NCBI GenBank assembly: GCA_947585595.1
Contig: CANPXB010000009.1
Location: 1 to 49,182 of the forward strand
Reading direction: 5' to 3'
Origin: an uncultured Bacilli bacterium
GTDB taxonomy: Bacteria > Bacillota_I > Bacilli_A > RF39 > UBA660
Length of the DNA stretch: 49,182 bases
A program made the translations under genes and the position numbers. The notes below the pieces were generated by a model. That model was not told the origin of the DNA, ran no database searches, and saw only the letters and a list, made by a program, of their open reading frames with translations. Each line of letters starts with the position of its first letter. Within the stretch, counting starts at the first letter, position 1. Shown here one piece after another: positions 6,719-9,939 of the stretch.

Positions 6719-7867
6719 TTATCCATTTAATACTGTTGCATTTCCAACTAGATCTTTTTCTGCTTCAGAAGCTTTTACTAATAAGCCATCGTCACCTTTT
6801 ACGTCACCAACTAATGCACCTTTAAATGTTCCAGATTTAACCATTCCAGGATGTTTTTCTAAAAATTCTTTATTTGGTACATGTAGTGCTGGAATTCTAT
6901 CGCCTTTTGCATTTTCTCCAGATGTAACTGTTGCATCAGCAATACTATAAGTTCCTTTTATACCATCGAACCATATAGCTTCATATACATCATCTTCAGA
7001 TATGATTTCAGTTTCTTTTCCTTTAATTGTTAAAGCATTTGTATAATCTTCATCTGCTTCTTTAACCCAAATTGTTGAATTACTTGCAGCTTTTACAGTA
7101 CCTGCATTTATGTTTAATGTTCCGTTTTGTAGTATGAAAGTAGCACTATCACCAGTTGTTTCATAGTTTCCACCATTAACATTAACTACTGCTTTTCCTG
7201 CATCTAATATAACTAAACTAGATGCTCCTTTTACTGTAGCATTTAAGTTAACTGTTAAATTGTCAGCTTTATTAGCTGTACAATTAATCAATTCACCAAC
7301 TAAGCCTTCCCATTTACCATTAATATTAACTACTGTTTTTTCTGTAGCGTCAGTTACTTCAACTACATATAGTTCATCTCTGTCACCTTTAACAGTAACA
7401 TCTTTAGCAATAGTTAATGTAGTAGCTTTATCAGCACCATTAACTTTAATTCTTCCTGCAACACTATTTGGAACCATATCAAGAGTACCATTTTTAATAG
7501 TAACATTGGCACCTTCGACTTGCCATACTCCATTACCACTAAATGTTACAGATTGTTTATTTAAGTTAAGTGTTACATTTGATTTAATAGTTTCATTACT
7601 AACAAAATTAAATGTTTTACCTTTAACGAATACTATTTCTGCTGTTTCGTCATCTTCAACTGAATCAGCAGCATTACTTAAATCATCAAAACATTTATAT
7701 TGTTTGTTTCCTGAGTAATTTACATAAAAATAATTATTTTTACAGCTTTCTTCTGGACCTTCAGCAGCAGAAACTGTTACTAGTGACATTGTGAGTAAGC
7801 CTAGTGGTTGAGGTCCTATATATGGTTGATTTTGTAAGATTTTATAAAAAAATTTAAAAAATTTCAC
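6719..7867 (-). CDS. Secreted beta-helix-like protein with a rearranged 5' end
   Basis: About 360 residues of repeated short strands with regular Val/Ile-Asn/Gly steps (for example VNINGKWEGL, LTVNLNATVKG, AVVNVNGGNYETTG, TLNINAGTVKA), typical of right-handed beta-helix/pectate-lyase-like surface proteins. The signal-peptide core LLTMSLVTVSAA matches the partial gene at 1-111 almost base for base, but the match stops near 7800. Upstream of that point the frame codes for an unrelated segment, there is no ribosome-binding site before the only upstream start (GTG, 7867), and the divergent rpn gene begins 62 bases away. The natural start was probably lost, so this may be silent. No cell-wall anchor motif at the C-terminus. 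Confidence 0.6.
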   Translation of the reverse strand: MKFFKFFYKILQNQPYIGPQPLGLLTMSLVTVSAAEGPEESCKNNYFYVNYSGNKQYKCFDDLSNAADSVEDDETAEIVFVKGKTFNFVSNETIKSNVTLNLNKQSVTFSGNGVWQVEGANVTIKNGTLDMVPNSVAGRIKVNGADKATTLTIAKDVTVKGDRDELYVVEVTDATEKTVVNINGKWEGLVGELINCTANKADNLTVNLNATVKGASSLVILDAGKAVVNVNGGNYETTGDSATFILQNGTLNINAGTVKAASNSTIWVKEADEDYTNALTIKGKETEIISEDDVYEAIWFDGIKGTYSIADATVTSGENAKGDRIPALHVPNKEFLEKHPGMVKSGTFKGALVGDVKGDDGLLVKASEAEKDLVGNATVLNG

Positions 7868-7928
7868 TGAAAAAAAAGGAAATCAGGGGGTGAATGTAGA
7901 ATATATATAGTGAAGGGAGAAAATTTCG

Positions 7929-8831
7929 ATGAATGCAGAAAGCGAAGAAAAATTCGAAAAAATAGAAGAAGTTGAAGATGAAGAAGCCGAAGAAAAATTC
8001 CTACCACTAACAAACGATTATTTATTTCAATCTCTATGGACAGAAGGCAGCATAGAAAGTAAAAAATTCTTATATCGATTTATAAGCAATATAGTTGGAA
8101 TTGATATTAGTAAATTTGAAGTTAAAAATAATGAAATTGGTATTGAAGCAGGAAAAGGTAAAAGAAATAGATTAGATATCCTATTAGAATCATCAGATAA
8201 AAAAATTAAAATAGATATTGAATTAAATACTCAATATTATAAAGGGTTAAGAAATCGAAATGAATCATATTTATATAGAATAGCAGGTAGATACTTCAAA
8301 AGAGGTTCAAAAAATAAATATAAAGATAAAATAACTGTATATCAAGTAAATTTAGATCTTTTTTCATCAAGAGATGATAAAAAGATAGGTATTTCTACAT
8401 ATAGTATGAAAGACAAAGAAAACGACTTAGATTTAAATAGTATTAAAATTATTGATATTTTTATACCAACAATTTGTAAAACGTGGTACAATATTGATAC
8501 AGAGATACAACTAGATTATAAAATGTTTATTGCTAAAAATTATGAAGAAATGGAAAAATATGCAAAAGATAATAAAGAAAGGAGAGCAATTATGGAGGAT
8601 ATAAAAGAAAAAATGAAAACAGACGAGCTATTAGAAAGAATATATGAAGAACAAAAATTCTATAATGAAGAAGTAAAAGTAGATATTGAAAAAAAAGCTC
8701 TTAAAAAGGGCGTTAAAAAAGGTATTAAAAAAGGCCGTGAAGAGGAACGTAAAGAAATAATAAACAAATTAATATCAAGTGGAATGCCTAAAGCAGAAAT
8801 ATCTAAAGTTCTTGGTATACCTGTACTTTAA
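7929..8831 (+). CDS. Rpn-family recombination-promoting nuclease / PD-(D/E)XK transposase-like protein
   Basis: A 300-residue protein. Residues about 24-185 form the Rpn/PD-(D/E)XK domain: it opens FLPLTNDYLFQSLW, and has the nuclease strand pair RLDILLE and IKIDIELNTQ. The C-terminal third is charged coiled coil with KKGVKKGIKKGREEER and ends in a small helix-turn-helix-like tail (LISSGMPKAEISKVLGIP). Start supported by GGGAG 10 bases upstream. Rpn proteins cut DNA and some act in phage defence. The gene contains a strong internal start (next entry). Confidence 0.85.
   Translation: MNAESEEKFEKIEEVEDEEAEEKFLPLTNDYLFQSLWTEGSIESKKFLYRFISNIVGIDISKFEVKNNEIGIEAGKGKRNRLDILLESSDKKIKIDIELNTQYYKGLRNRNESYLYRIAGRYFKRGSKNKYKDKITVYQVNLDLFSSRDDKKIGISTYSMKDKENDLDLNSIKIIDIFIPTICKTWYNIDTEIQLDYKMFIAKNYEEMEKYAKDNKERRAIMEDIKEKMKTDELLERIYEEQKFYNEEVKVDIEKKALKKGVKKGIKKGREEERKEIINKLISSGMPKAEISKVLGIPVL
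8592..8831 (+). CDS. Internal in-frame ORF of rpn: possible RpnS-like intragenic inhibitor (79 aa)
   Basis: Inside the rpn gene, AAAGGAG (8578-8584) precedes an in-frame ATG (8592) by 7 bases. Translation from it gives only the C-terminal region (MEDIKEKMKTDEL ... GMPKAEISKVLGIPVL). The free-standing gene at 8924 starts at the equivalent codon (MKDIKEQ), which argues that this internal start is real. In E. coli, rpn genes are reported to encode a small C-terminal protein in frame that blocks the nuclease; the same role here is inference. Confidence 0.5.
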   Translation: MEDIKEKMKTDELLERIYEEQKFYNEEVKVDIEKKALKKGVKKGIKKGREEERKEIINKLISSGMPKAEISKVLGIPVL

Positions 8832-8923
8832 TTAATATAATAACAATTAAGGTATAACATATATAAGGCAAAAAGCTATAAATAACTTATTAAACTGAAG
8901 ATAGTTAAGAAAGGATGAGTGTT

Positions 8924-9136
8924 ATGAAGGACATTAAAGAACAATTAGCAAAATATAAGAGGATTGAAAGAAAATATGATGCAGAAGAATATATAAAATC
9001 AGTTGAGAAAGCTAATATAGAAGAAGCACGTAAAGAAGAACACGAGGAAACAATAAATGATACAATAAATAAATTAACATCATATGGAATGCCTAAAGAA
9101 GAAATATCTAAAGCTCTTGGTATTTCACTACAATAA
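8924..9136 (+). CDS. Free-standing copy of the Rpn C-terminal segment (70 aa)
   Basis: MKDIKEQLAKY ... KLTSYGMPKEEISKALGISLQ aligns over its whole length with the internal product of the preceding rpn gene. An ATG nine bases upstream (8915) is in frame, but the Shine-Dalgarno AAAGGA sits right against it; 8924 has the correct spacing of about 8. It follows rpn by 92 bases on the same strand. Either a separate small inhibitor of the nuclease or the relic of a second rpn copy. Confidence 0.6.
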   Translation: MKDIKEQLAKYKRIERKYDAEEYIKSVEKANIEEARKEEHEETINDTINKLTSYGMPKEEISKALGISLQ

Positions 9137-9141
9137 AAAAC

Positions 9142-9164
9142 AAGAATACATACAACGTATTCTT
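9142..9164 (+). terminator. Terminator after the rpn pair
   Basis: Stem AAGAATAC / GTATTCTT with a 7-base loop followed by TTCATTT, five bases after the stop codon at 9136. Also usable for the convergent fic gene. Confidence 0.7.
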
Positions 9165-9180
9165 TTCATTTGCTATAAAG

Positions 9181-9939
9181 CTATTTATCTTCTAAATCAA
9201 AATCTAACATTTCTTTAGCAATACTTTCATACATATCTTGTTCATGTTTTATTGTATCAATTAAATACATTTTATCTGTTTTATAATTTTTTAAACCTCT
9301 CATATAATATGGTTTATCTTGATCTAAAATAATAAAAGGCATTATATTATTTTTTAAACATTCTTTAAACATAATCATTCTTCCTACTCTACCATTACCA
9401 TCACCAAAAGGATGAATACATTCAAATTTATAATGAAAATCAATAATATCTTCTATTGTTACCTTTTTTAATTTATTATATTCTTTTAATAAAGTATCTA
9501 AATCTTTTATAACATCTTCAGGTTTAGAAGTATCTATAACATTAATAAGTCCAATCTTATTAGGAACTACTTTAAATCCCCCAACATTATAACGAGGATT
9601 TTCTTCATCAGAAGTATTTCTTTTAAGTATTTTATTCATTTCAATCATTATATCTTTAGATAATTCTTCATCAATAATATCTAAACAATAATCAAAAAGA
9701 CGAAAATGATTCTTCATTTCAGTTAAATCATCAAATTGAATAGCATCTTCACTTTTAGGAATAAAAGAATTAGTTACAAATAATTCTTCAGTTTCATCTT
9801 CTGTTAAATGACTACCTTCAATCTTATTAGAATTATAAGCAAAATTAACTTGATAATAGTGATAAATATTTCCTTTGAACTTCGATTTTTTCTGATCAAT
9901 TAATTCATGCTTTATTTTATCTACCAACAAATTAATCAT
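9181..9939 (-). CDS. Fic-domain protein with its own inhibitory helix
   Basis: Fic proteins transfer AMP or a similar group to target proteins. The active-site loop HPFGDGNGR is intact (residues 176-184), with a second Arg at 187. Near the N-terminus SNKIEG (37-42) fits the (S/T)xxxE(G/N) inhibition motif, so this is the class II type held off by its own N-terminal helix. Length 252, typical for single-domain Fic. GGAG directly abuts the first ATG (9939); the TTG two codons later has better spacing and may be the real start. Stands alone between terminators. Confidence 0.9.
   Translation of the reverse strand: MINLLVDKIKHELIDQKKSKFKGNIYHYYQVNFAYNSNKIEGSHLTEDETEELFVTNSFIPKSEDAIQFDDLTEMKNHFRLFDYCLDIIDEELSKDIMIEMNKILKRNTSDEENPRYNVGGFKVVPNKIGLINVIDTSKPEDVIKDLDTLLKEYNKLKKVTIEDIIDFHYKFECIHPFGDGNGRVGRMIMFKECLKNNIMPFIILDQDKPYYMRGLKNYKTDKMYLIDTIKHEQDMYESIAKEMLDFDLEDK

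Follow-up and report, generated by a model that had tools for sequence, protein, structure and literature searches.

The rpn locus between positions 7929 and 9136 of the window, by which we mean the whole 49,182-nucleotide stretch of DNA that was analysed (from a gut bacterium, an uncultured member of the Bacilli), raises the question of whether a putative Rpn nuclease is restrained by a small protein encoded within its own gene, and of what a second, free-standing gene for a similar protein contributes downstream. Zhong et al. (2023) described that in E. coli RpnS is translated from within rpn and blocks RpnL, an inhibition that the earlier note had named correctly, and that RpnS also occurs as a separate downstream gene, as in ypaA and RpnC_S (PMC10327210). 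In their account, free and nested copies cluster together. As far as we found, this is the only paper in the Rpn literature that treats RpnS. A nested plus a separate RpnS is already published for E. coli, and given this precedent the window locus belongs to that known kind.

The full-length gene encodes a predicted Rpn nuclease

The positions that had been read from the letters (rpn, the internal Shine-Dalgarno with the ATG at 8592 giving 79 residues, and the next gene at 8924, which opens at the same point of the alignment) were correct. The full-length gene (rpnL, 7929..8831, plus strand) encodes a predicted nuclease of 300 aa, and its Shine-Dalgarno sequence (7912..7919, plus strand) lies inside an 87-base leader. 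Its identification as Rpn was confirmed with TIGR01784, which the window protein matched with 59.0 bits, above the curated cut-off of 52.1; this model was also matched by 21/21 aligned members of the family at E ≤ 0.01. PDDEXK_2 (PF12784) was matched by 13/21 of the aligned members at E ≤ 0.01, and a search with the window protein gave no match to it at E ≤ 1. Residues D83 and E98 were invariant across 21/21 relatives. N sits at the motif position where PD-(D/E)XK nucleases usually have K or Q.

The AlphaFold model of the protein (mean pLDDT 81.1) contains a long helix spanning residues 233-283. When this model was compared with the PDB using Foldseek, a McrC subunit was the sole match at E ≤ 0.001 (4e-4, with a low TM-score of 0.24), and restriction enzymes ranked below it. 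The family profile matched the tail structure of RpnA_S (7th0) with an E value of 8e-4 over its distal 38 positions, and we assign a distal helical tail module resembling this structure to 8739..8828 (plus strand). Immediately before it, at 8703..8738 (plus strand), the translation shows three four-residue repeats, KKGV, KKGI and KKGR, which fall within the tail's long helix in the model, so that the hypervariable repeats typical of RpnL/RpnS are present in the nested tail of the window.

The PADLOC scan yielded no usable match to an Rpn model. A Fic-domain protein encoded convergently with the rpn locus (9181-9939, minus strand) strongly matched PDC-S04, a candidate defence family of PADLOC (5e-96), and it is possible that the rpn locus and the adjoining Fic gene form a small defence cluster. 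A promoter scan of 7700-9300 yielded fewer sites than shuffled sequences, and no terminator was found.

The internal start of rpn is a conserved feature of the family

Inside rpnL, the Shine-Dalgarno sequence AAGGAGA (8579..8585, plus strand), whose position is kept across the family, precedes an in-frame ATG from which the nested rpnS (8592..8831, plus strand) would give a predicted antitoxin of 79 residues beginning with MEDIKEKM. Measured as the duplex with a generic 16S tail (kcal/mol), the internal site (−9.0) matches that of rpn's own start (−8.7). At the sequence level, the RpnL/RpnS trait of an internal ribosome binding site and start giving the C-terminal tail is present.

For comparison with the window, rpn loci were collected across its taxonomic family, giving 133 non-duplicate loci with 122 full-length genes, 121 of them distinct. 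Of these loci, 80 were further ones chosen among the best matches listed, mostly full-length, with truncated or stop-bearing entries mostly omitted and lower-ranking ones left out. Every in-frame ATG, GTG and TTG of the 121 distinct genes was scanned in bins of 10 profile positions. Starts with a duplex ≤ −7.5 clustered at profile positions 190-209 (83 + 21 = 104 gene-bin counts), where the window start lies at position 198; the background was 0-6 such starts per bin, and the N-terminal bin, with the true starts, had 8. Under the looser limit of ≤ −5.5, an internal start was detected at positions 183-212 in 117/121 genes, the exceptions being L011, L035, L058 and L086. The earlier claim that the internal start is real is thus borne out by a Shine-Dalgarno-backed start at the aligned position in nearly the whole family.

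It is very improbable that the residues encoded here produced the internal Shine-Dalgarno and ATG by chance. For the window gene by itself, 13% of synonymous draws gave an equally strong duplex (P = 0.13), but this is a weak test, as the encoded Glu-Arg-Arg leaves the purines little freedom to vary. Across the family, the observed duplex exceeded the mean of the gene's own synonymous resampling in 111/120 genes (mean of −9.65 observed vs −6.01 after resampling), and the position-specific conservation stands against the low background per bin. As judged from these alignments, the internal start is a conserved family feature and not the product of chance. The comparison strongly supports the view that rpn genes of this lineage carry it as a regular component.

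The free-standing gene carries a start inherited from the nested tail

A free-standing rpnS-like gene (8924..9136, plus strand) lies on the same strand as rpn and is separated from it by 92 bases. Its product of 70 aa begins with MKDIKEQL, M(E/K)DIKE being the N-terminus common to the nested and free small proteins. The duplex of its Shine-Dalgarno is −6.4; a second in-frame ATG at 8915 abuts this site and is the less likely start. The leader of the gene (8906..8923, plus strand) contains an in-frame TAA followed by the Shine-Dalgarno sequence AAGAAAGG, and in the alignment it is homologous to the nested leaders; tblastn matches extend into it, interrupted by stops, and we interpret it as a remnant of rpn coding sequence. 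The earlier note took the free gene as independent proof of the internal start. This could not be sustained, since the leader, and with it the start, came along with the duplicated tail, and only the retention of the start counts as evidence.

By codon alignment, the proximal parts of the nested and free tails of the window share 11/32 residues, whereas the distal modules are rather similar (20/34 identical). The free copy, with 70 aa vs 79, has none of the three glycine tetrads found in the nested tail. This lack and the divergence of the proximal part make it doubtful that the two proteins are one and the same inhibitor. In a neutral simulation with a simple model, a 70-codon frame survived a dS of 0.45 with P 0.003-0.018; the frame of the window free copy has been kept beyond neutral expectation.

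A small protein encoded both nested and free-standing, as the earlier note had suggested, was found twice in this genome (G000; 1.55 Mb, 55 contigs, contamination estimate of 6.22%). The second full rpn, on contig C48, has its own nested start (−8.6/−11.6) and its own downstream free tail of 81 codons. The leaders of both rpn genes align over 87 bases with 84% identity, indicating that they are paralogues of one lineage. The presence of a TAA before the Shine-Dalgarno in both free copies was considered as a mark of common origin and was not relied on, because a TAA beside the Shine-Dalgarno is frequent in AT-rich leaders. Two more tails end at contig edges, on C6 and at the start of C48; they have 88% DNA identity over 267 bases and differ at their ends, one being like the C48 tails and the other like the window tail.

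Upstream of the second rpn (locus L008) there are two overlapping genes, at 618-1175 and 1168-1629, whose products carry Rpn-tail-like helical modules (profile matches; two in each by eye) and have no nuclease domain. The stretch 465-511 of the same locus, which lies in a surface-protein gene at the end encoding the signal peptide, is repeated in the window at 7754-7800 and 25-77 with 86-87% identity. This common stretch suggests repeats or duplication around the rpn loci.

Free-standing tails differ in repeat length from their nested neighbours

In the family we detected 12 free-standing tails, found as open frames, so decayed copies would be missed. Eleven are downstream of 10/122 full-length genes, on the same strand, and the twelfth stands behind a tail cut by the contig end. 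All of them (12/12) begin at the aligned internal-start position, and 11/12 have a Shine-Dalgarno ≤ −5.5, the exception being L079 (−1.5). These tails were compared with the nested ones by codon alignment; DNA-level profiles were spoiled in 6/12 pairs by self-overlap alignment. Internal gaps, mostly of multiples of four residues, were required in 11/12 pairs, and only L079 aligned without gaps.

Other arrangements of tails were also observed. At L043 (G090:C38, 209-1677) two consecutive free tails lie behind rpn and form a small array, in which each stop-to-stop frame overlaps the preceding gene by a few bases. The tail L013 is upstream of a truncated rpn and behind an rpn-type leader. The RpnL of L029 (G031), 366 aa long, contains two tandem copies of the tail in one protein and is perhaps an intermediate of tail duplication. 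A search of genome contigs with the single protein found no relative; an alignment-based search found four named loci from uncultured Bacilli, including Candidatus Coprovivens, and none of these four has a free tail.

In E. coli, 16 of the 18 rpnE loci sampled have both a nested and a free copy, and the length of the repeat block was unequal in 16/16. Eight combinations of rpnE/ypaA blocks were present: 8/12, 28/12, 28/8, 40/24, 28/16, 40/32, 32/24 and 20/12 residues. The K-12 pair has a block of 8 in RpnE_S and of 12 in YpaA. In these 16 strains, the nested tail ends in a TDADIPN-type sequence (once SDADIPN) and the free one in a SEADLAANN-type sequence. The two strains without the free copy carry the SEADLAANNH type on rpnE itself, which fits the deletion-fusion mentioned by Zhong et al. 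(PMC10327210). The Results, Discussion and legends of that paper contain no statement on a repeat mismatch of free copies, and in relation to these parts of it the mismatch is a new observation. That the free copy so rarely matches the repeats of its neighbour raises the question of its purpose.

Distal modules are exchanged between tails

In several nested/free pairs the proximal part is nearly identical and the last 34 codons are much older. The distal vs proximal dS was 0.81 vs 0.08 for L090, 0.37 vs 0.12 for L043a, 1.48 vs 0.38 for L031 and 2.79 vs 0.33 for L079. The window pair is reversed (proximal dS of 1.49, distal of 0.45), and the C48 and L054 pairs showed no contrast between the two parts. 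For 7/12 free tails (window, L043 second copy, L079, L105, L125, L129 and L031) the best distal match was not the neighbouring nested tail, and for the other 5/12 (C48, L043 first copy, L054, L090 and L108) it was. Some of these modules have relatives elsewhere in their own genome: that of a free tail of G026 is identical at 31/32 residues to another rpn, and that of G090 at 29/32 to the tail of another rpn locus. In a comparison of seven free tails with same-genome loci of the collected sample only, the free tail at position 1095 of L043 aligned without gaps to another RpnL of its genome.

Variation of this kind was also evident among the full-length proteins. In 40 RpnL pairs with nuclease domains ≥ 80% identical, distal identity ranged from 31% to 100%, and just 10/40 were of equal length. 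Tails are thus exchanged generally, and unequal repeats also occur beyond the free copies; with so few close pairs of equal length, the mismatch may simply reflect hypervariability. The claim that free copies shun the matched repeat number beyond expectation was dropped against this baseline.

Possible roles of the free-standing tail

We consider it reasonably probable that the locus is an rpnL-rpnS module in which nested RpnS is the matched inhibitor and the free copy is a variant tail, probably an unmatched one. The full-length protein would act as a PD-(D/E)XK nuclease whose toxicity we infer, and its C-terminal tail would also be translated alone from 8592 as the matched RpnS, a role suggested by the work of Zhong et al. 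(PMC10327210). By homology, a duplicated or displaced downstream tail became a gene of its own, bringing with it the internal Shine-Dalgarno and start, and it has probably been retained as a translatable gene. Sequence comparison shows the tails of this family to behave as exchangeable cassettes, with recombination altering the repeat number and swapping the distal module. The free copy would therefore be a variant probably not matched to the adjacent RpnL, and that nuclease is most likely restrained by the nested product rather than by the free one.

It is unlikely that the free gene instead supplies additional antitoxin against the adjacent RpnL, its separate expression keeping the inhibitor above the toxin. 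The same start point, the same strand, the distance of 92 bases, an own Shine-Dalgarno and the similarity of the distal modules agree with such a role, and E. coli YpaA/RpnE_S is synthesised (PMC10327210). However, the free copy lacks the glycine tetrads and is 9 residues shorter, and repeat blocks are unequal in all the E. coli strains with both copies and in 11/12 family pairs. For RpnC, the only case in which this was shown, the number of repeats decides which RpnS inhibits which RpnL, and one extra four-residue repeat abolishes inhibition (PMC10327210). If repeat length sets specificity as in RpnC, the free copy is predicted not to be an equivalent inhibitor; its match to the adjacent nuclease would be poor. 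It is rather unlikely that the gene is a decaying, functionless leftover of tail duplication. RefSeq labels 14/16 E. coli downstream copies as pseudogene or incomplete (L148-L150, L153-L156, L162-L166, L168 and L170), and the window copy has lost the tetrads and diverged strongly in its proximal part; nevertheless, 16/16 E. coli copies conserve frame, start and Shine-Dalgarno, the open frame and start of the window copy survive at a dS that neutral frames seldom withstand, and pN is lower than pS in both halves.

A further explanation, to which we give only tentative weight, casts the free tail as an antitoxin that works in trans on different or earlier versions of RpnL, or else as a reserve of alternative tails that can recombine into rpn. 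The same-genome matches in G026 and G090, the gap-free alignment at L043 and the E. coli strains that have the free distal type on rpnE point in this direction. Against it, no full-length partner with the tail of the window free copy was found among seven matches in its genome, though contig ends cut two further tails there, and no switching of tails over time was observed. The broader proposal that Rpn tails are shuffling cassettes, with mismatched free tails serving both as trans-antitoxins and as recombination donors, seems doubtful to us; if true, one recombination would change the toxin tail and the nested antitoxin together, and the specificity of the pair would switch without any unprotected stage.

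Comparison with known systems

The window locus extends the nested-antitoxin arrangement, with an extra free copy, to an uncultured Bacilli lineage rich in rpn genes. In the Rhs and CDI systems, where the toxins are secreted and immunity is encoded separately, there are orphan C-terminal tips as well as orphan immunity genes. The resemblance to those orphans lies in displaced C-terminal modules of variable specificity downstream of the main gene; the difference is that in Rpn the module itself is both the inhibitor and the tail of the toxin. The C. difficile rpn is a Gram-positive counterpart, likened here by its published description, in which an RpnS product was seen on expression in E. coli (PMC10327210). 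The closest parallel is RpnE_L/RpnE_S with ypaA of E. coli K-12, an Rpn nuclease with an internal start giving a C-terminal inhibitor, as is predicted for the window. Like the gene at 8924, ypaA is a downstream free copy with the same start residue and its own Shine-Dalgarno. The two systems belong to different phyla, the free copy follows the rpn stop after 12 bases in E. coli vs 92 in the window, and the glycine tetrads are kept in the free copy of E. coli, whereas that of the window has none.
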